Assembly (NCBI GenBank): GCA_947331495.1
Contig: CAMZOI010000004.1
Coordinates: 62,001 to 126,000 of the forward strand
Length of the DNA: 64,000 nucleotides
Direction: 5' to 3'
Origin: Erythrobacteraceae bacterium Alg239-R51
GTDB lineage: Bacteria > Pseudomonadota > Alphaproteobacteria > Sphingomonadales > Sphingomonadaceae
Part shown: positions 39,238 to 46,901 of the stretch, piece after piece
Position numbering within the stretch: the first letter of the stretch is position 1
How the letters are laid out: every line of letters begins with the position of its first letter
The notes under the pieces: model-generated
Databases searched by the model: none
The model's input: the letters and a program-made list of their open reading frames with translations, nothing else
What the model was told of the DNA's origin: nothing
Position numbers and translations under genes: made by a program

Positions 39238-40035
39238 ATGATTTCGATCGCTACCTGGAATATAAACTCGGTTCGCTTGCGCATGCCGATCGTCGCGCGC
39301 TTTCTCGAAGAGCAGTCGCCCGACATTCTATGTCTGCAGGAAATCAAATGTCAGGAGCACCAGTTCCCGTTCGAAGCGTTCAGAGCGTTGGGCTACGAAC
39401 ATTTCGCGGTCCACGGGCAGAAGGGTTATCACGGCGTGGCGACCGTCGGGAAAATTCCGTTCCGCGATCATTCGAAGCATGACTGGCAAGACAATGGCGA
39501 GGCCCGTCATATCGGTGTCGAACTGACCGATCCCGCACATCAAGGGTTGATCGTGGAGAATGTCTACGTTCCCGCCGGCGGTGACATTCCCGACCGCGCG
39601 CAGAACGTGAAGTTCGGACAGAAGCTCGACTTTTTCGAGCGGATGACGCGCTGGGCGGACGCTATAGAGCGGCCCACGTTAATCGTCGGCGATTTCAACG
39701 TCGCGCCGCTGGAAAGCGACGTGTGGAGCCACAAGCAATTGCGCAAGGTCGTCAGCCATACCCCGATCGAGATCGCGACGTTGCAGCGATTCATGGACGC
39801 GCATGGCTGGGCGGATATCGGTCGCCAGCATATCAAGTCGCCGGAGCGGTATTACAGCTGGTGGAGCTACCGCGCGAAAGACTGGAAGGCTAACGACCGG
39901 GGCCGCCGACTCGATCATATGTGGGCCAGCCCCGAACTCGCGAAGCAGGCGAAGGCGCATTCGGTTCACGAGTATGCGCGCGATTGGGAGAAGCCCTCCG
40001 ACCACGTGCCGCTCGTCACCGAGTTCGATATATGA
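39238..40035 (+). CDS. xthA: Exodeoxyribonuclease III
   Basis: An AP endonuclease and 3'-5' exonuclease for base excision repair. The 265-residue EEP-family protein has NINSVRLRMP (Asn), LCLQEIKCQ (catalytic Glu), YVPAGGDIPDRAQN, VGDFNVAPLESDVW (Asp and Asn), RRLDHMWASPEL and the terminal SDHVPLVTEF with the catalytic Asp-His. The start has no ribosome site, and the putative -10 is 6 nt upstream. ribA follows within 15-50 bp and is probably cotranscribed. Confidence 0.96.
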   Translation: MISIATWNINSVRLRMPIVARFLEEQSPDILCLQEIKCQEHQFPFEAFRALGYEHFAVHGQKGYHGVATVGKIPFRDHSKHDWQDNGEARHIGVELTDPAHQGLIVENVYVPAGGDIPDRAQNVKFGQKLDFFERMTRWADAIERPTLIVGDFNVAPLESDVWSHKQLRKVVSHTPIEIATLQRFMDAHGWADIGRQHIKSPERYYSWWSYRAKDWKANDRGRRLDHMWASPELAKQAKAHSVHEYARDWEKPSDHVPLVTEFDI

Positions 40036-40048
40036 CGGAGTTAGGCCA

Positions 40049-41110
40049 CTGACAGGGCCTTCTCCTTCGCGGCGGGCGGCGCTGGCGGTGGATGCGCTGC
40101 GCCACGGCTGGCCATTGGCGATCGAGGGCGCGCCGCTGCTCCAGCCCGTCGAAACGGCATTTTCCGAGGTTTCGGGCGAAACCATGCTGATATCGGCTAC
40201 GCGCGCGGCCACCCTCAAGCTAGCAAACCAGCGCGAGGCGGCGGTTCCGCGGCATCCGGTGCTGCTGCGCGCCGCGGAACTTTTCGATCTGCCCGCGGCG
40301 CTGGCAGTGGCCGATCCTGCGCTCGATATGCGAAACCCGCTGAAAGGACCGTTCAAGGCGTTGCCTCTCGAATGGGAGAAACAGGCAAAAGCCGCGCTCG
40401 AACTCGCGCGAATTGCGGGAATATTACCCGCCTTCATCGTCGATCCGGAAGGAAGCAGCGAGGCCGCATGTCTGACCGCCAGCGATGTCGGTGCCTTCAG
40501 CGATCCCATGCGGCTCGGCATTGCCACCCGCGCCCGGCTGCCCGTGGCGGCGGCCCAAGGCGCGCACATCGTCGCCTTTCGCAGCCCTGACGATACGCGC
40601 GAGCATCTCGCGCTGATCATCGGCCGTGAAAATTCGGCCACGCCGCCGCTGGTCCGCCTGCATTCCGAATGTGTAACGGGCGATATTCTCGGAAGCCTAA
40701 AATGCGATTGCGGCCCGCAGCTCGATGCCGCGCTTCAGGCGATGGCGACGGAGGAAAAGGGAGGCGGCTGGGGCATTCTGCTCTACATGCGACAGGAAGG
40801 GCGCGGGATCGGCATGGTCAACAAGCTGCGCGCCTATCGCCTGCAGGATCAGGGCTTCGACACGGTCGACGCCAATACCCGGCTCGGTCTGCCCGACGAG
40901 GCGCGAGATTTCCCCACCGCCGCGCGCATGCTGGGCTTGCTTGGCGTGAAGGATATCCGCCTTATGACGAACAATCCCGCGAAGGTCGCAGCATTTGAGG
41001 CCGAAGGCGTGAAAGTGTCCGAGCGCTTGGCACATTCGCTGCCCGACAATCCCCATAACGCCCGCTACCTCGCTACGAAGCGAGACCGGGCGGGACACCT
41101 GCTGCCATGA
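40049..41110 (+). CDS. ribA: GTP cyclohydrolase II
   Basis: This enzyme opens GTP to the first riboflavin intermediate. The C-terminal catalytic half shows RLHSECVTGDILGSLKCDCG with the three zinc cysteines, MRQEGRGIGMVNKLRAY and DANTRLGLPDEARDF. A longer N-terminal part (about 150 residues) has no recognisable catalytic motif and is seen in sphingomonad RibA proteins. The start is unclear. The only in-frame ATG upstream lies inside xthA. I propose CTG at 40049, with GGAG 8 nt before it, because the encoded RRAALAVDALRHGW seems family-conserved. The conservative alternative is GTG at 40088, giving 340 residues. Confidence 0.9.
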   Translation: MTGPSPSRRAALAVDALRHGWPLAIEGAPLLQPVETAFSEVSGETMLISATRAATLKLANQREAAVPRHPVLLRAAELFDLPAALAVADPALDMRNPLKGPFKALPLEWEKQAKAALELARIAGILPAFIVDPEGSSEAACLTASDVGAFSDPMRLGIATRARLPVAAAQGAHIVAFRSPDDTREHLALIIGRENSATPPLVRLHSECVTGDILGSLKCDCGPQLDAALQAMATEEKGGGWGILLYMRQEGRGIGMVNKLRAYRLQDQGFDTVDANTRLGLPDEARDFPTAARMLGLLGVKDIRLMTNNPAKVAAFEAEGVKVSERLAHSLPDNPHNARYLATKRDRAGHLLP

Positions 41111-41416
41111 ACGCAATTGTCATCTAGCTGAACGGGCGGGCGAGCAAGGGACAATTCAGGCGCTGACCGAGACCACGTTTCGCGACATGCCTTTGAGTGA
41201 CGGCGACGAGCAGCATCTCGTAAACGCGCTGCGGCGCGGTCGCGACCTGGTGCTGTTATTGGCGTAGAGAATGCCGAACGGATCATCGGCCATATCGCCT
41301 TCTCGCGCGAGACCATTTCGGAAGGCAGCCGCGACTGGTACGACCTCGGCCCGATGACCGGGGAGCTCGGAGCGCAGCAGCTGGTGCTCGAAGGCGATGC
41401 TCCGCGGGACGGTGGC
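41107..41416 (+). pseudogene. Decayed GNAT-family N-acetyltransferase
   Basis: The remains of a YhbS-like acetyltransferase follow ribA, with the old ATG at 41107 overlapping the ribA stop (ATGA). After a frame change, codons 41130-41269 read ERAGEQGTIQALTETTFRDM and then SDGDEQHLVNALRRGRDLVLL before a TAG. A further frame shift gives VENAERIIGHIAFSRETISE and WYDLGPM (to about 41356). The sequence then jumps to LGAQQLVLEGDA, which resembles the late part of the fold. The middle, including the acetyl-CoA loop, is missing. At least two frameshifts and one deletion make a functional product very unlikely. Confidence 0.75.
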
Positions 41417-42277
41417 CTACGCCGCGGCGTTCGGCTGAAGCCGCTTGCCGATGGCCTGCCCCATGCGGACGCTGTCTCCCGGCCTGAGATCATCGAGCCA
41501 TTCGACCCTGCCCGGCTCGAAGAGCAACACCACGGTCGAGCCGAGAATAAAACGTCCCATTTCCTCGCCTGCTCCGAAGCTGTGCCGGTTCGGTGAGAAC
41601 TCCTGCCTTACGAGCGCAGGCGCGTGGGTTTCGACAAGCCCCGACCAGACCGTTTCGATGCCTGCCACGATCATCGCACCGACCATCACGCTGGCGAAAT
41701 GGCCATCCTCACCTTCGAACAGGCAAGCAAGGCGCTCGTTGCGGGCGAACAGGCCGTCGACATTCTCAGCTGTAACCTGGTTCACCGAAAAAAGGTCGCC
41801 CGGGACGTAGGTGGTCGAAAGCAAATTTCCGGTCGCGGGCATATGAACCCGATGATAATCGCGCGGAGACAGGTAGACGGTCGCGAAGTGCCCACCCTCG
41901 AACCGGCGTGCCGCAGTCTCGTTATCGCCGAGCAACTGGCGGGCCGTGAAATGACGGCCCTTGGCCTGGAAAATCCGGCCCTGCTCGACCCGTCCGATCT
42001 GGCTGATCGTGCCATCGGCCGGACTGAGGATATTGCGCGTTTCGTCGGCCAGCGGTCGAGCGCCCGGCTTCAGTTCGCGCGTGAAGAAATCGTTAAATGA
42101 GGAATAGTCATCGACGTTTCGGGCCGCTTCGCTCATGTCAACGTCATAAGCCGCAATAAAGCGCCGGATAAGCCGGTCCTTCAACCAGCCGATCTTGCTC
42201 GAAGCGATCTTGCCCGCGCTGCGTGATACGGCGTGGTGAGGGAGGATGTGCTGAAGCCAGATGAAGGGTGAAGTCAT
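41417..42277 (-). CDS. psd: Phosphatidylserine decarboxylase
   Basis: An inner-membrane enzyme that makes phosphatidylethanolamine. The 286-residue proenzyme has NDFFTRELKPGARPL, DYHRVHMPATG and the self-cleavage site LGST (within RFILGSTVVLLFEPG), where the serine becomes the pyruvoyl group of the small subunit. The start at 42277 gives the usual MTSPFIWLQHILPHHAVSR N-terminus; an ATG seven codons earlier is possible. It lies 30 bp downstream of the DksA-like gene on the same strand and may share its stress promoter. The acetyltransferase fossil converges on it. Confidence 0.93.
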   Translation of the reverse strand: MTSPFIWLQHILPHHAVSRSAGKIASSKIGWLKDRLIRRFIAAYDVDMSEAARNVDDYSSFNDFFTRELKPGARPLADETRNILSPADGTISQIGRVEQGRIFQAKGRHFTARQLLGDNETAARRFEGGHFATVYLSPRDYHRVHMPATGNLLSTTYVPGDLFSVNQVTAENVDGLFARNERLACLFEGEDGHFASVMVGAMIVAGIETVWSGLVETHAPALVRQEFSPNRHSFGAGEEMGRFILGSTVVLLFEPGRVEWLDDLRPGDSVRMGQAIGKRLQPNAAA

Positions 42278-42307
42278 GATCGGACTGGTCGTGCGCACGG
42301 ACGCGAC

Positions 42308-42571
42308 TTAACGCAACTGGCTATCCTTGCTTCCGCGCCGGTTATACGCCGTGTGACGGACAAACGCGTCCTTGCCGGACTGGCATTCGACGCATCTGCG
42401 CACCCCTGGCAGCGCTTTTCGGCGTTTTTCGGGGATCGGCTCGCCGCACTCATCGCAGTACTGCGCACTTTCGCCCTGAGGCATGCGCGAACGCGCCGCG
42501 CTGACCGCATCGCTTATCGTGTCATCGATCTGGTCCTGAACCGCCCCGTCGCGGGCCCATCCACCTGCCAT
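42308..42571 (-). CDS. DksA/TraR-family C4 zinc-finger protein (YbiI-like)
   Basis: An 87-residue protein of the short DksA/TraR group, probably binding the RNA polymerase secondary channel or another RNA-related target. The zinc site is YCDECGEPIPEKRRKALPG with RRCVECQ, giving the four cysteines. The long N-terminal coiled coil of DksA is reduced to a short helix (QDQIDDTISDAVSAARSRM), as in YbiI. It has a strong AAGGAGG ribosome site and a perfect EcfG-type promoter 22 bp before the ATG. That suggests a role in the general stress response. Confidence 0.9.
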   Translation of the reverse strand: MAGGWARDGAVQDQIDDTISDAVSAARSRMPQGESAQYCDECGEPIPEKRRKALPGVRRCVECQSGKDAFVRHTAYNRRGSKDSQLR

Positions 42572-42592
42572 GAAGGCCTCCTTGATTTCTCA

Positions 42593-42618
42593 AACGATCA
42601 GGTGGAGGGACGTGTTCC
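42593..42618 (-). promoter_or_regulatory. Perfect EcfG (general stress response) promoter
   Basis: On the minus strand, GGAAC (42618-42614), 17 bases, then CGTT (42596-42593). This matches the known EcfG consensus GGAAC-N16/17-CGTT exactly. The predicted start lies some 10-15 nt before an AAGGAGG ribosome site and the ATG at 42571. It should place the DksA-like gene, and perhaps psd behind it, under PhyR-NepR-EcfG control. Confidence 0.7.
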
Positions 42619-43614
42619 CTACCGGCGTTCGAAAGCGCGCAGGTTCGGACCGAGCAGATTGTCGCCAATCGTCAGCCGGTCTCCAGTCCAGTCGGCCACG
42701 AACACGGACTCACGCCGCAGGCCAGGTGCCAATTGTGCATTGTTCTCTTCGATCACCAGCCCGTCGGAGCTGTATTTCGCGCCCTCGGCCCCGACAGCGA
42801 TCAGGGCGGACCAGTTTTCCTTGTCACGGCCCTGTACGAACCAATTGCCGGTGATCGCGCCGCCGCCGCCTTCGGGCAGATCGATCATGTAGTTCGTCCC
42901 TCTTCCATTCGAATCGTCGAAACTGTTGTCGCTTATGAGGTTATAAGCAGCACGCGACTTCAGATAATGTCCGCCGGTTCCCTGTTCGAAACGGCTGCGT
43001 GTCACGCTAAGTCGCCCGTAATCGCCGACATAAATCGAGTGTGCGCAACCCGCGGAATGCTCACATGTGCCAAGCCGCGTGAAAGTGGAACGGTCGATAG
43101 TCAACTCGCTATCGACACCGTTCGTTGTCAAAATGCCCTGCTGGCTGTCGCGAAACCAGCTTTGCGAAATGTGAAGCGGTCCCTGTTCGAGCCGAATGCC
43201 CGCGCCATTGCCGTCCGGAACACTAATGTCGGCGAAGACGATCCCTTCGACCCCCGCGCCGCGTCCGCGAAGGACGAGCGCGGCCTTGCCTTCGCACGCG
43301 GTGCCGCCAAGCAGCGTCTCGCCCGGTTCGACAGCGCGAAACGTGATATTCCCGCTTGTCTGGACTGCGCATTGTTTCCAGTTTCCAGGAGCGATGGAAA
43401 TCGTACCGTCGCGCTCGCCGATCGCGTTCACCGCTTCCTGCAACGAGGCAAAGCCCTGCCCGGTTTCCAGGACCGTGAACGGAGCTGCCGGTCGATCCTG
43501 CGCCAGAAGCGCCGCCAGCGGAATGGCCGTCACCGCGAACAAGGCGACTGTGCCCGTAAGCCAGCGCGGCGTTCGTGTTATCGACGAGACCATGTCCCGG
43601 AAATAGATTCTCAT
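42619..43614 (-). CDS. Right-handed beta-helix repeat protein, exported
   Basis: A predicted exported protein of about 331 residues. The N-terminus has a transmembrane or uncleaved signal segment (WLTGTVALFAVTAIPLAALL). The rest is a pectate-lyase-like right-handed beta helix, with short repeating strands such as NITFRAVEPGETLLGG, VEGIVFADISVPDGNGAGI, LTIDRSTFTRLG and LSVTRSRFEQGTGGHYLKSR. Such proteins act as carbohydrate lyases, epimerases or adhesins; I see no catalytic triad that I can name. The start is uncertain: ATG 43614 or 43593. It lies 37 bp after the hydrolase gene and is probably cotranscribed with it. Confidence 0.75.
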   Translation of the reverse strand: MRIYFRDMVSSITRTPRWLTGTVALFAVTAIPLAALLAQDRPAAPFTVLETGQGFASLQEAVNAIGERDGTISIAPGNWKQCAVQTSGNITFRAVEPGETLLGGTACEGKAALVLRGRGAGVEGIVFADISVPDGNGAGIRLEQGPLHISQSWFRDSQQGILTTNGVDSELTIDRSTFTRLGTCEHSAGCAHSIYVGDYGRLSVTRSRFEQGTGGHYLKSRAAYNLISDNSFDDSNGRGTNYMIDLPEGGGGAITGNWFVQGRDKENWSALIAVGAEGAKYSSDGLVIEENNAQLAPGLRRESVFVADWTGDRLTIGDNLLGPNLRAFERR

Positions 43615-43651
43615 GGTTAACATTACGACAACATCCCGGAGTCTTGACCGC

Positions 43652-44623
43652 TCACTCAGCTTCACCATCCGCCTGCCCGACGAACGCGGCGATCGCATCG
43701 ACCAGTTCCGTCATGACGGGCAGGGACGGGTCGGTATAGGTCGCCAAATTCCCTGCGCGATCCTCGCCGGCGGCACTTTTGAGAACGTGATTCATGTTTG
43801 CTAGCATGACATATCGCGCCGCCGGTTGCGCCGCATGCAACGCCTGACCATCGTCGAGCGTGACCTGCAAGTCTTGCCCCCCTTGAACAATCAGCATCGG
43901 AAGCGCGGTTTCCCCCGCCAGCGCCGCTGGATCGTATGCCATAATGTCAACGAGGAAACCCTGTACCTGAGGCGCAAATAGACCCTGCAAGGCCGGGTGC
44001 ATATCGGACACATTCACCCGGTCGCCCGCTTCGAGCGTATCGATCGCCGTCATGGCATCGGGAAGAATGACGCTATTCGCCGGATTGGCCCGCAATTGAT
44101 CGCGCAGAATATCGCCCAGAGGCCGTCCCGGCACAGCGACAAGAATTGCTCCGCAGATATTATCGACCCGCTGTGCCGCCGCAAGAGCGACAAGGCCGCC
44201 CTCGCTATGCCCAAGCAACCATACGCATTCACGCTGCGTAGCTTCTCGCGCCGAAACGATCCAGGCAGCGACATCCTCGACGTAAGCCCCTATGGTCACG
44301 TTGTTAGGATCGGCGATCGCAGTGTTGCTACCGAACATTCCGCGCTTGTCGATGCGCAAGCTTCCTATGCCTCGTTCACGGAGCGCTTCTGCCAGAAGGC
44401 GGTAGGATGCGGCGGTGACGCCCAGAGGGTTGTTGCCGTCTCGATCGGTCGGGCCGGAACCAGGTATAATCAGCACGACCGGATTGTTGTCCACTGGCTG
44501 GATCAAGGTGCCGGACAGTTGGTCCTCGGGGCCAGGCGCAGTAAGTTCTACCTGTGCAAAAGAATTCGTCGACATGGCGCAACCTGCTGCCGCAATGAAA
44601 ATGGATTTCAACGAATGCTTCAT
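43652..44623 (-). CDS. Exported alpha/beta hydrolase
   Basis: A 323-residue alpha/beta hydrolase with an N-terminal signal peptide (MKHSLKSIFIAAAGCAMSTN, cleaved near SFAQ). The oxyanion region is VLIIPGSGPTDRDGNNPLG. The nucleophile is the serine in GHSEGGLVALAAAQR, the acid is probably in IVQGGQDLQVTLDDG, and the histidine in ANMNHVLK. It resembles serine aminopeptidase S33/acylglycerol lipase-like periplasmic hydrolases. The substrate is unknown. A ribosome site AAAGGG lies 6 nt before the ATG at 44623, and a TTGTGC/TCTTAT promoter is possible within the 73-bp gap to recQ. Confidence 0.87.
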   Translation of the reverse strand: MKHSLKSIFIAAAGCAMSTNSFAQVELTAPGPEDQLSGTLIQPVDNNPVVLIIPGSGPTDRDGNNPLGVTAASYRLLAEALRERGIGSLRIDKRGMFGSNTAIADPNNVTIGAYVEDVAAWIVSAREATQRECVWLLGHSEGGLVALAAAQRVDNICGAILVAVPGRPLGDILRDQLRANPANSVILPDAMTAIDTLEAGDRVNVSDMHPALQGLFAPQVQGFLVDIMAYDPAALAGETALPMLIVQGGQDLQVTLDDGQALHAAQPAARYVMLANMNHVLKSAAGEDRAGNLATYTDPSLPVMTELVDAIAAFVGQADGEAE

Positions 44624-44696
44624 TCGGCACCCTTTCACTCGAACTGTATTCCGAATCGAATAAGAGCGCATTGCGCGGCTTGGCACAACAGCCGCA

Positions 44697-46481
44697 TCAA
44701 CTTCGGACAATCGCGTCGAGAAACTGCTTTCCATAGGCATCCAGTTTCTTTGCCCCGATGCCTGGCAGCGCTCCGAGTTCGGCTATCGTGTTGGGACGCT
44801 TTGCCGCCATTTCTCGCAAGGTTGAATCGTGAAAGACGACATAGGGCGGCACTCCACCAGCTTCGGCCAGTTCCTTGCGCAGGGTGCGCAGAGCTTCGAA
44901 GAGGGGGTCGCCCACCGGGTTTGCTATCGGGTCGCGACGTCGCTGTCGTTGACGTTTCGGTGGGGCCACGATCGCCACTTCACTTTTGCCCTTGAGAATC
45001 GCCCTTGCGCTACCACCAAGGGCAAGTCCGCCATGCTCTGTGGCAACAAGATCGCCACGCGTTTGAAGAGCCCTCGAGAGCGGTTGCAGGAGATTGGCCT
45101 GCTCGTTCTGAACAATGCCGAACACCGATAAATGGTCGTGTCCGCGTTGGCGCACCCGTTCGTCTTCAACCCCGGTCAGGACTTTCTGGAGATGTCCCAT
45201 GCCGAAGCTCTGACCGGTGCGATACACTGCCGAGAGCAACTTGCGCGCCAGTTCGGTGACATCGGTGACGCGGGGCTTTTCCAGGCAATTGTCGCAATTG
45301 CCGCAGGCTTGCGGCGGATCTTCCCCGAAATGCCTGAGCAGGACTGCGCGGCGGCAGTCGGCGGTTTCGACAAGTCCCGCAAGTGCATCGATCCTGGCAC
45401 GGTCTGCCTCGCGCCTCGCGCTCTCGACCTCGGCCAGGCGCTGACGGGCGGTGGCGAAGTCGCCGGCAGCCCAGAACATCGTCGCTTGTGCAGGATCGCC
45501 GTCGCGACCAGCACGGCCGGTTTCCTGGTAGTAGGCCTCGAGTGACTTTGGGACACCGACATGCGCGACGAAACGGACATCGGGCTTGTCGATACCCATT
45601 CCGAAAGCAACCGTGGCGACAATCACCATGTCTTCGCTGAGAACGAACGCCTCCTGGTTCGCAGCCCTAGTCACCGCGTCCAGCCCTGCGTGATAGGGCA
45701 ACACGCTTCGCCCTGTCGCAGCAGCGAGTTTCTCTGCCAGATCCTCGACCTTTCGGCGCGTAGGGCCGTAGATGATACCCGAACCCGGATGCTTAGCCAT
45801 CATTTGGGAAAGCTGGCGCAGGGGATCGTCTTTGTGCCGGATGGCGTAACGAATGTTCGGACGATCGAACCCGGCCAGGATCAGGCCACCCTCAGGAATG
45901 CCGAGTTGGGTCATCACATCGGTTCGGGTCCGGCCGTCTGCCGTGGCCGTCAGTGCGAGCCTCGGAACATTGGGAAACGCATCCATGAGCGGGCGCAACT
46001 GGCGGTAGTCGGGCCTGAAATCATGGCCCCATTCGCTCACGCAGTGGGCTTCGTCCACCGCGAACAGGCTTAGCGGCGCGCTGCTCAGCAGATCGCGAAA
46101 ACCGCGTTGACTTGCCCGTTCGGGAGAGACGTAGAGAAGATCCAGTTCGCCCGCGCGGAACGCATCTTGGGTGCTCCGCCAATCGAAGTCGGCACTGGTC
46201 AGAGTTGCGGCACGAATGCCGTTGGCACGCGCGCTCCGGAGCTGGTCGTGCATTAGGGCAATCAGGGGGCTGATGACCACACACGTTCCGGGCCGCATTG
46301 TCGCCGGAAGCTGATATGTAAGGGATTTGCCCGCCCCCGTCGGCATGACGGCAAGTGCGGATTGCCCAGACAGCACCCGGGCGATGACCTCAGACTGTTT
46401 TCCGCGAAAATCATCGAAGCCGAACAGGGTCTTGAGATGCGCACGCGCCTCGTCCAAATTCACTTCGGCCTCATTCAGCAT
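44697..46481 (-). CDS. recQ: ATP-dependent DNA helicase RecQ
   Basis: A 3'-5' helicase for recombination and replication-fork repair. The 594 residues contain Walker A MPTGAGKS (46-53), the DEAH box in [20 protein letters not shown] and the helicase core [10 protein letters not shown]. The RQC zinc site is visible ([13 protein letters not shown] and CGNCDNC), then the winged helix. A C-terminal HRDC domain ends [20 protein letters not shown]. All three domains are complete and the length is normal. It is divergent from the lipoprotein gene at 46599. Confidence 0.96.
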
Positions 46482-46538
46482 GGGCTACCTGTGGCACAAA
46501 CACTTGGGCACGCAACCGCTTCCCTCGCATTTTTCCCC

Positions 46539-46567
46539 TTGCTCCTTGCTCAAGCCTTACGTTTAAC
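46539..46567 (+). promoter_or_regulatory. Possible promoter of the acidic lipoprotein
   Basis: TTGCTC (46539-46544), a 17-bp spacer and TTTAAC (46562-46567) precede the ATG at 46599 by 31 nt. Both boxes are imperfect. Confidence 0.3.
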
Positions 46568-46598
46568 GACGCGGCAACCCATTGACAGGAGAATTCTC

Positions 46599-46901
46599 AT
46601 GAAGTTTCGTGTTGCTCTGGTCGCATCTGCGACTGTCGCGCTTGCTGCTTGTGGCAGCAATGAAGATGCATCGATCGAGGCTGAGGCCGAGACGGTTGAA
46701 TACACCGCCGACGAGGCGCTGGAAGGCGTCGACGAAGAACCGGTCGCCGATCCGTCGGCCAATCTTTCCACGCCGCAGAACGTCCAGGACGAGGCCGAGG
46801 TCGCTCCGGAAGAAGCTGCAACGATCGAGGCTGCTGGCGACAACGCGGCTGCTACCGCCGAAGCAGCGATGGACGAAATGTACGGCGACGCCGAGAACTG
46901 A
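46599..46901 (+). CDS. Small acidic lipoprotein
   Basis: A 100-residue lipoprotein with signal MKFRVALVASATVALAAC and lipobox LAAC. The mature chain is very rich in Glu, Ala and Asp with hardly any aromatic residues, so it is probably disordered or extended. It has no family I recognise. An AGGAGA ribosome site lies 8 nt before the ATG. A strong hairpin (46912-46954) follows its stop, before another small acidic lipoprotein gene. A similarly acidic lipoprotein is encoded at 52764-53015. Confidence 0.82.
   Translation: MKFRVALVASATVALAACGSNEDASIEAEAETVEYTADEALEGVDEEPVADPSANLSTPQNVQDEAEVAPEEAATIEAAGDNAAATAEAAMDEMYGDAEN

Follow-up and report, generated by a model that had tools for sequence, protein, structure and literature searches.

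A conserved EcfG-type promoter predicted to place ybiI, a DksA/TraR-family zinc-finger gene, under the general stress response of a sphingomonad

A GGAAC-N17-CGTT string in front of a small zinc-finger gene of Erythrobacteraceae bacterium Alg239-R51 raises the question of whether it is a working promoter of the EcfG-dependent general stress response and, if so, which of the neighboring genes it serves. The string lies at 42593–42618 on the minus strand of the window, i.e., the 64,000-nt stretch of DNA analyzed here, and is composed of a GGAAC −35 element (42614–42618), a 17-nt spacer, and a CGTT −10 element (42593–42596), an exact match to the EcfG −35/−10 elements with their 16–17-nt spacing. 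On its upstream side it abuts the stop codon of a gene encoding a beta-helix protein (42619–43698, minus strand; PF13229, 28.5 bits), the true start of which is probably internal to that open reading frame (ORF). The next ATG, that of ybiI at 42571, lies 21 nt beyond the end of CGTT, with the Shine-Dalgarno sequence AAGGAGG (42577–42583, minus strand) in between. The perfect match and the correct placement ahead of a strong ribosome-binding site, both claimed in the original prediction, are thus borne out. A crude scan of 41100–46700 found no sigma-70 alternative directly before ybiI.

The gene itself (42308–42571, minus strand; PF01258, 52 bits) encodes an 87-aa DksA/TraR-family C4 zinc-finger protein and is followed on the same strand by psd, encoding phosphatidylserine decarboxylase (41417–42277; PF02666, 208.6 bits). 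For psd, the ATG at 42277 is a likelier start than the listed GTG at 42298, because the matches of relatives mostly begin near residue 8; counted from this ATG, the gap between ybiI and psd is 30 bp. No terminator-like site was found between the two genes on their strand, and psd is probably carried on the ybiI transcript by read-through. On the upstream side, the beta-helix ORF overlaps an alpha/beta hydrolase gene (43652–44740, minus strand; PF12146), which in turn overlaps a RecQ helicase gene (44697–46481, minus strand; PF09382, PF00570, and PF16124). Since these overlapping ORFs all point in the same direction, the promoter sits inside a series of co-directional genes, and housekeeping transcription of the entire string may originate in the RecQ region, if the genes are cotranscribed. 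Beyond psd, the stretch at 41111–41416, adjoining ribA (39803–41110, plus strand), resembles a broken plus-strand ORF, and neither of its two pieces matched a Pfam family.

The genome also holds the regulatory circuit to which such a promoter would respond. NepR (PF18557) is encoded at G000:C2:188558–188662 with an exact copy of the motif upstream, and its neighbors are an ECF sigma factor, PhyR (NF006623, 369 bits), and a CHASE-HWE kinase; a further motif copy is situated 29 nt before phyR. The sigma factor is called EcfG-like because it is encoded next to NepR and is similar to PhyR_sigma2; no equivalog model scored above its cut-off on this protein. In circuits of this type, phosphorylated PhyR sequesters NepR under stress and thereby frees EcfG. 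At our locus, the freed EcfG–RNA polymerase would initiate shortly before the ribosome-binding site of ybiI, at about 42584–42588, approximately 13–17 nt before the ATG. The product would be an mRNA with a short leader that encodes the TraR-like protein of 87 aa and continues by read-through into psd. YbiI would then probably enter the secondary channel of RNA polymerase and tune promoter output under stress. The reading that we favor, with considerable confidence, is accordingly composite: a functional EcfG promoter inside the co-directional run, ybiI as its selected target, psd reached by read-through, and YbiI acting at the polymerase. Here, we infer dependence on EcfG, binding to the polymerase, and a physiological effect; the evidence for each part is considered below.

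The original prediction of a DksA/TraR-type zinc-finger gene can be made more precise, as the protein belongs to the YbiI family (PRK11019; NF008243, 138.2 bits against a cut-off of 96, residues 1–87). The scores for DksA proper (TIGR02420, 23 against an equivalog cut-off of 115.5 bits) and for TraR proper (NF010268, 43.4 against 108 bits) fall well below the respective thresholds. E. coli YbiI, for which an NMR structure has been available since 2009 (PDB 2kgo), is a full-length homolog (E 1.2e-30), and the literature that we found assigns the protein no settled function. An AlphaFold2 model of moderate quality (pLDDT 70.5) retrieved 2kgo as its first structure match with a poor superposition (TM 0.40, rmsd 16.9), so that this match rests on sequence; the next fold match was polymerase-bound TraR (TM 0.52–0.64, Foldseek E 2.3e-4 to 1.1e-3). 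The CxxC-17-CxxC zinc finger is present in all 75 YbiI proteins of the same family of bacteria, and residues C39, C42, C60, C63, R50, and R51 do not vary among 40 aligned sequences, the arginine pair appearing as (I/L/V)P..RR in 71 of the wider set of 75. R50 and R51 align with R48 and R49 of TraR, which have been described as contacting the secondary-channel rim and beta-prime Si3 (PMC9239242). At the tip, all 75 proteins carry WxxDxA (W5xxD8xA10) where TraR has DxxDxA, with a register uncertain by one residue, since the profile alignment leaves D8 one residue out of step with TraR D6. The C-terminal tail NRRGSKDSQLR (window 42308–42343) is nearly invariant, with RRGSKDSQLR in 72 of 75 proteins; it was modeled at low confidence and extends past the end of the TraR alignment.

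A role of YbiI at the polymerase is, on this evidence, a likely prediction. The most probable of the alternatives is that the promoter is EcfG-dependent and YbiI does not act on RNA polymerase, serving instead, e.g., an iron-related or other stress function. We regard this as possible though unlikely: a role in iron metabolism is favored by the authors of PMC2613031, some C4 zinc-finger relatives without DxxDxA do not behave like DksA or TraR (PMC9239242), and the conserved tail has its place outside the TraR-aligned part, whereas the resemblance to polymerase-bound TraR in fold and zinc finger, the invariant arginines aligned with those of TraR, and the suppression of dksA mutant auxotrophies by high-level E. 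coli YbiI, mentioned as data not shown in PMC2613031, all argue for action at the polymerase.

The question of whether the promoter is real, and for which gene, was approached through relatives. In 199 same-family genomes, 106 of which had some YbiI match, 76 full-length loci were taken and 75 parsed, one (L059) being left out for want of a matching start. At 26 of the 75 loci, ybiI is the gene immediately after the beta-helix gene. Within 75 nt of ybiI, GGAAC-N16/17-NGTT was found at 21 of these 26 beta-helix-linked loci versus 4 of the 49 others (p 2.7e-10, relatedness ignored), i.e., before 25 of 75 overall. At a 150-nt cut the unlinked count becomes 5 of 49; the exact motif of locus L048, which has no beta-helix gene, stands at −77, just past the 75-nt limit, and so does not enter the 4 of 49. 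Of the five linked loci that miss the motif, two are duplicates of each other, and four differ from it by a single base. With duplicates removed, the motif precedes 21 of 25 linked loci against a shuffle mean of 0.03 and a maximum of 1. The −10 box in the 21 motif-bearing loci reads CGTT (11), GGTT (8), or TGTT (2) and ends 20–24 nt before the ATG, whereas identity among the spacers is only 38% for the 18 loci in which they are 17 nt long; published EcfG promoters likewise combine a conserved GGAAC with a flexible −10 (PMC7083833). In one genome, the beta-helix–ybiI–psd arrangement is found twice near opposite contig ends with identical YbiI proteins (L064 and L065), which is probably an assembly overlap.

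The beta-helix gene, which has a match at E ≤ 1e-20 in 138 of the 199 genomes, served as a control. The set comprised the 40 top-scoring beta-helix loci that lack ybiI as the next gene, one of them offering just 239 bases; none has the motif, including seven loci with psd directly next to the beta-helix gene. From the linked, control, and named-locus comparisons, the promoter tracks ybiI and not the beta-helix gene or psd as such, and the motif is very probably a real EcfG promoter with ybiI as its target.

These counts also bear on psd, which the original prediction had tied to the circuit with a "perhaps". That psd is the selected target, for remodeling of membrane phospholipids under stress, with ybiI as a passenger, has some points on its side: 16 of the 26 beta-helix-linked ybiI genes have psd close behind them, 8 of the 13 named loci whose motif is exact or differs by one base also have psd downstream, and no terminator-like site was seen at the ybiI–psd junction here. 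Against it, besides the seven motif-free loci with psd directly after the beta-helix gene, stand eight motif-bearing beta-helix loci and four motif loci without a beta-helix gene, none of which has psd in the stretch examined. We therefore consider this reading improbable, and psd, disfavored as the main target by the seven motif-free loci, would be at most a secondary beneficiary of the promoter; of the suggested tie, only the probable read-through stands.

The motif was also weighed by number and by position. In the window, GGAAC-N16–18-CGTT occurs three times versus 1.8 expected, and 35 of 100 shuffles reach three; in the whole genome (2.91 Mb), 53 copies of GGAAC-N16/17-CGTT face 68 of a reversed control. 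Because the motif is enriched in neither, bulk enrichment was dropped as an argument. The position of the copies was assessed by requiring a motif 12–45 nt before a Shine-Dalgarno sequence and the start codon of an ORF no shorter than 50 aa, for 51 of the 53 motif copies and 35 of the 68 reversed-control sites. Such start codons are preceded by 18 of 51 motif copies and by 1 of 35 control sites (Fisher p 0.00035, relatedness ignored). The genome scan envisaged in the original prediction thus came out negative by raw count and positive for sites before starts, and the significance of the motif comes from its position and conservation, its count alone being no better than chance. That this copy is a functionless chance match, one of many such strings in a GC-rich genome, agrees with the raw counts in window and genome but is very improbable, being already largely refuted by the conserved footprint, i.e., the fixed distance before orthologs with diverged spacers, and further opposed by the enrichment before start codons.

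The 18 genomic copies ahead of start codons give a set of predicted targets. A Pfam scan of 10 of the 18 assigned a family in seven cases and none in three; the typed targets include a DJ-1/PfpI protein, an MscS-type channel, an S30AE-type ribosome-associated protein, a PAS-HWE histidine kinase, PhaC, and a sulfate permease, and phyR is an additional predicted target beyond those scanned. Perfect EcfG-type promoters were also seen before two short hydrophilic proteins of 82 aa (L113, G000:C1:2068419–2071444) and 114 aa (L003, C1:306985–310010), the latter without a Pfam family in the scan. The predicted phyR, MscS-type channel, and HWE kinase targets are of the types reported for Sphingopyxis granuli, where mscS, phyR, and an HWE kinase are direct targets in the EcfG regulon (PMC7083833). 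NepR is encoded in all 25 motif-bearing genomes and in 177 of the 199 same-family genomes overall, and is hence weakly informative. The proposed link to the PhyR–NepR–EcfG circuit is supported, as a prediction, by the conservation of the promoter in relatives, the PhyR–NepR–sigma locus in the same genome, and the motifs before phyR and nepR.

The control of ybiI by EcfG appears to be lineage-restricted and not universal, as indicated by the 25 of 75 same-family loci with the motif, and it is not intrinsic to ybiI because so few unlinked loci carry the motif within 75 nt. Among the same-genus relatives sampled, two have ybiI without the motif, with upstream regions that look sigma-70-like by eye, and a third is without the gene. 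A ybiI tree (87 columns) required 16 parsimony changes, in which gains and losses of the promoter are not separable; the loci are related by descent, and two independent contrasts only fall on supported branches. A clean comparison is available between related sphingomonads in which ybiI is under predicted EcfG control and those in which it is not.

In named genomes, the nearest YbiI loci belong to Erythrobacteraceae such as Qipengyuania. Seven of 80 named YbiI loci are beta-helix-linked, two of them with the exact motif and four more with a one-base variant; the other 73 include four with the exact motif and three more with a variant. Three of these four exact loci, from a Qipengyuania aestuarii, a Q. 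vulgaris, and an Erythrobacter MAG (L211, L213, and L215), show ybiI followed by psd and no beta-helix match in the DNA examined. Across the class, YbiI is sparse, being detected in 17 of 385 genomes at E ≤ 1e-15, four of them from the same family. Of 14 class loci (L192–L205), among which L194 repeats a same-family gene and L202 has an internal stop, one from another family (L203) carries an exact GGAAC-N17-CGTT at −84 before ybiI in a genome that encodes NepR, and GGAAC-N16/17-NGTT was not found within 150 nt at any of the remaining 13. Given the exact motif and NepR at L203, the EcfG–ybiI link may have arisen more than once. GGAAC-N17-GGTT at −49 before ybiI of the rhizobial Bosea sp. AAP35 (L257, one of the 80 named loci) is possibly a further independent EcfG link or a chance occurrence.

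Compared with known systems, the promoter resembles the EcfG (sigma-T/RpoE2-type) promoters of Sphingopyxis granuli TFA and Sphingomonas melonis Fr1 in its GGAAC, its 16–17-nt spacer, its CGTT or near-variant −10, and its short distance to the start codon, and the genome resembles theirs in its PhyR–NepR–sigma locus (PMC7083833 and PMC6599016). The terms DksA, TraR, and zinc finger are absent from the main text of both papers, as distinct from their supplementary gene lists. Among the titles and abstracts examined, none linked EcfG to YbiI, and no paper in the collection searched combined EcfG with the TraR family; published regulon tables could list such a link. We propose that ybiI joins the known EcfG regulon as a newly predicted member, an assignment as strong as comparison of sequences permits. 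If YbiI does act as proposed, it would offer the alphaproteobacterial stress response a possible route to RNA polymerase itself, beyond promoter choice. With the secondary-channel regulators TraR and DksA, YbiI shares the C4 zinc finger, an N-terminal helix, and the rim-contact arginines, but it differs from them in scoring below their equivalog cut-offs, in having WxxDxA in place of DxxDxA, and in its extra conserved C-terminal tail.

RpoS and EcfG are sigma factors of different, unrelated types with different promoter recognition. In E. coli, ybiI has been verified as a target of RpoS and is thus likewise under the general stress sigma factor (PMC4447067); its neighbors there are ybiX and fiu (PMC5493296), in contrast to the beta-helix gene and psd here. 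In 48 of the 80 named loci, taken as gamma-proteobacterial or other, RpoS-like −10 boxes precede ybiI in six, against a shuffle mean of 1.8 and a maximum of 7; as this is too weak to claim, the E. coli paper is the basis for the RpoS link. That one protein should come under RpoS in one lineage and, as predicted, under EcfG in another, a convergence that we did not expect, is the most interesting result of the comparison. The placement of ybiI under unrelated master stress sigmas in two bacterial classes argues for a general-stress role. It is tempting, though tentative, to suppose that RpoS in enterobacteria and EcfG in sphingomonads independently took over YbiI as a dedicated general-stress partner of the polymerase, a secondary-channel factor that would help to move it from growth to stress promoters without ppGpp.
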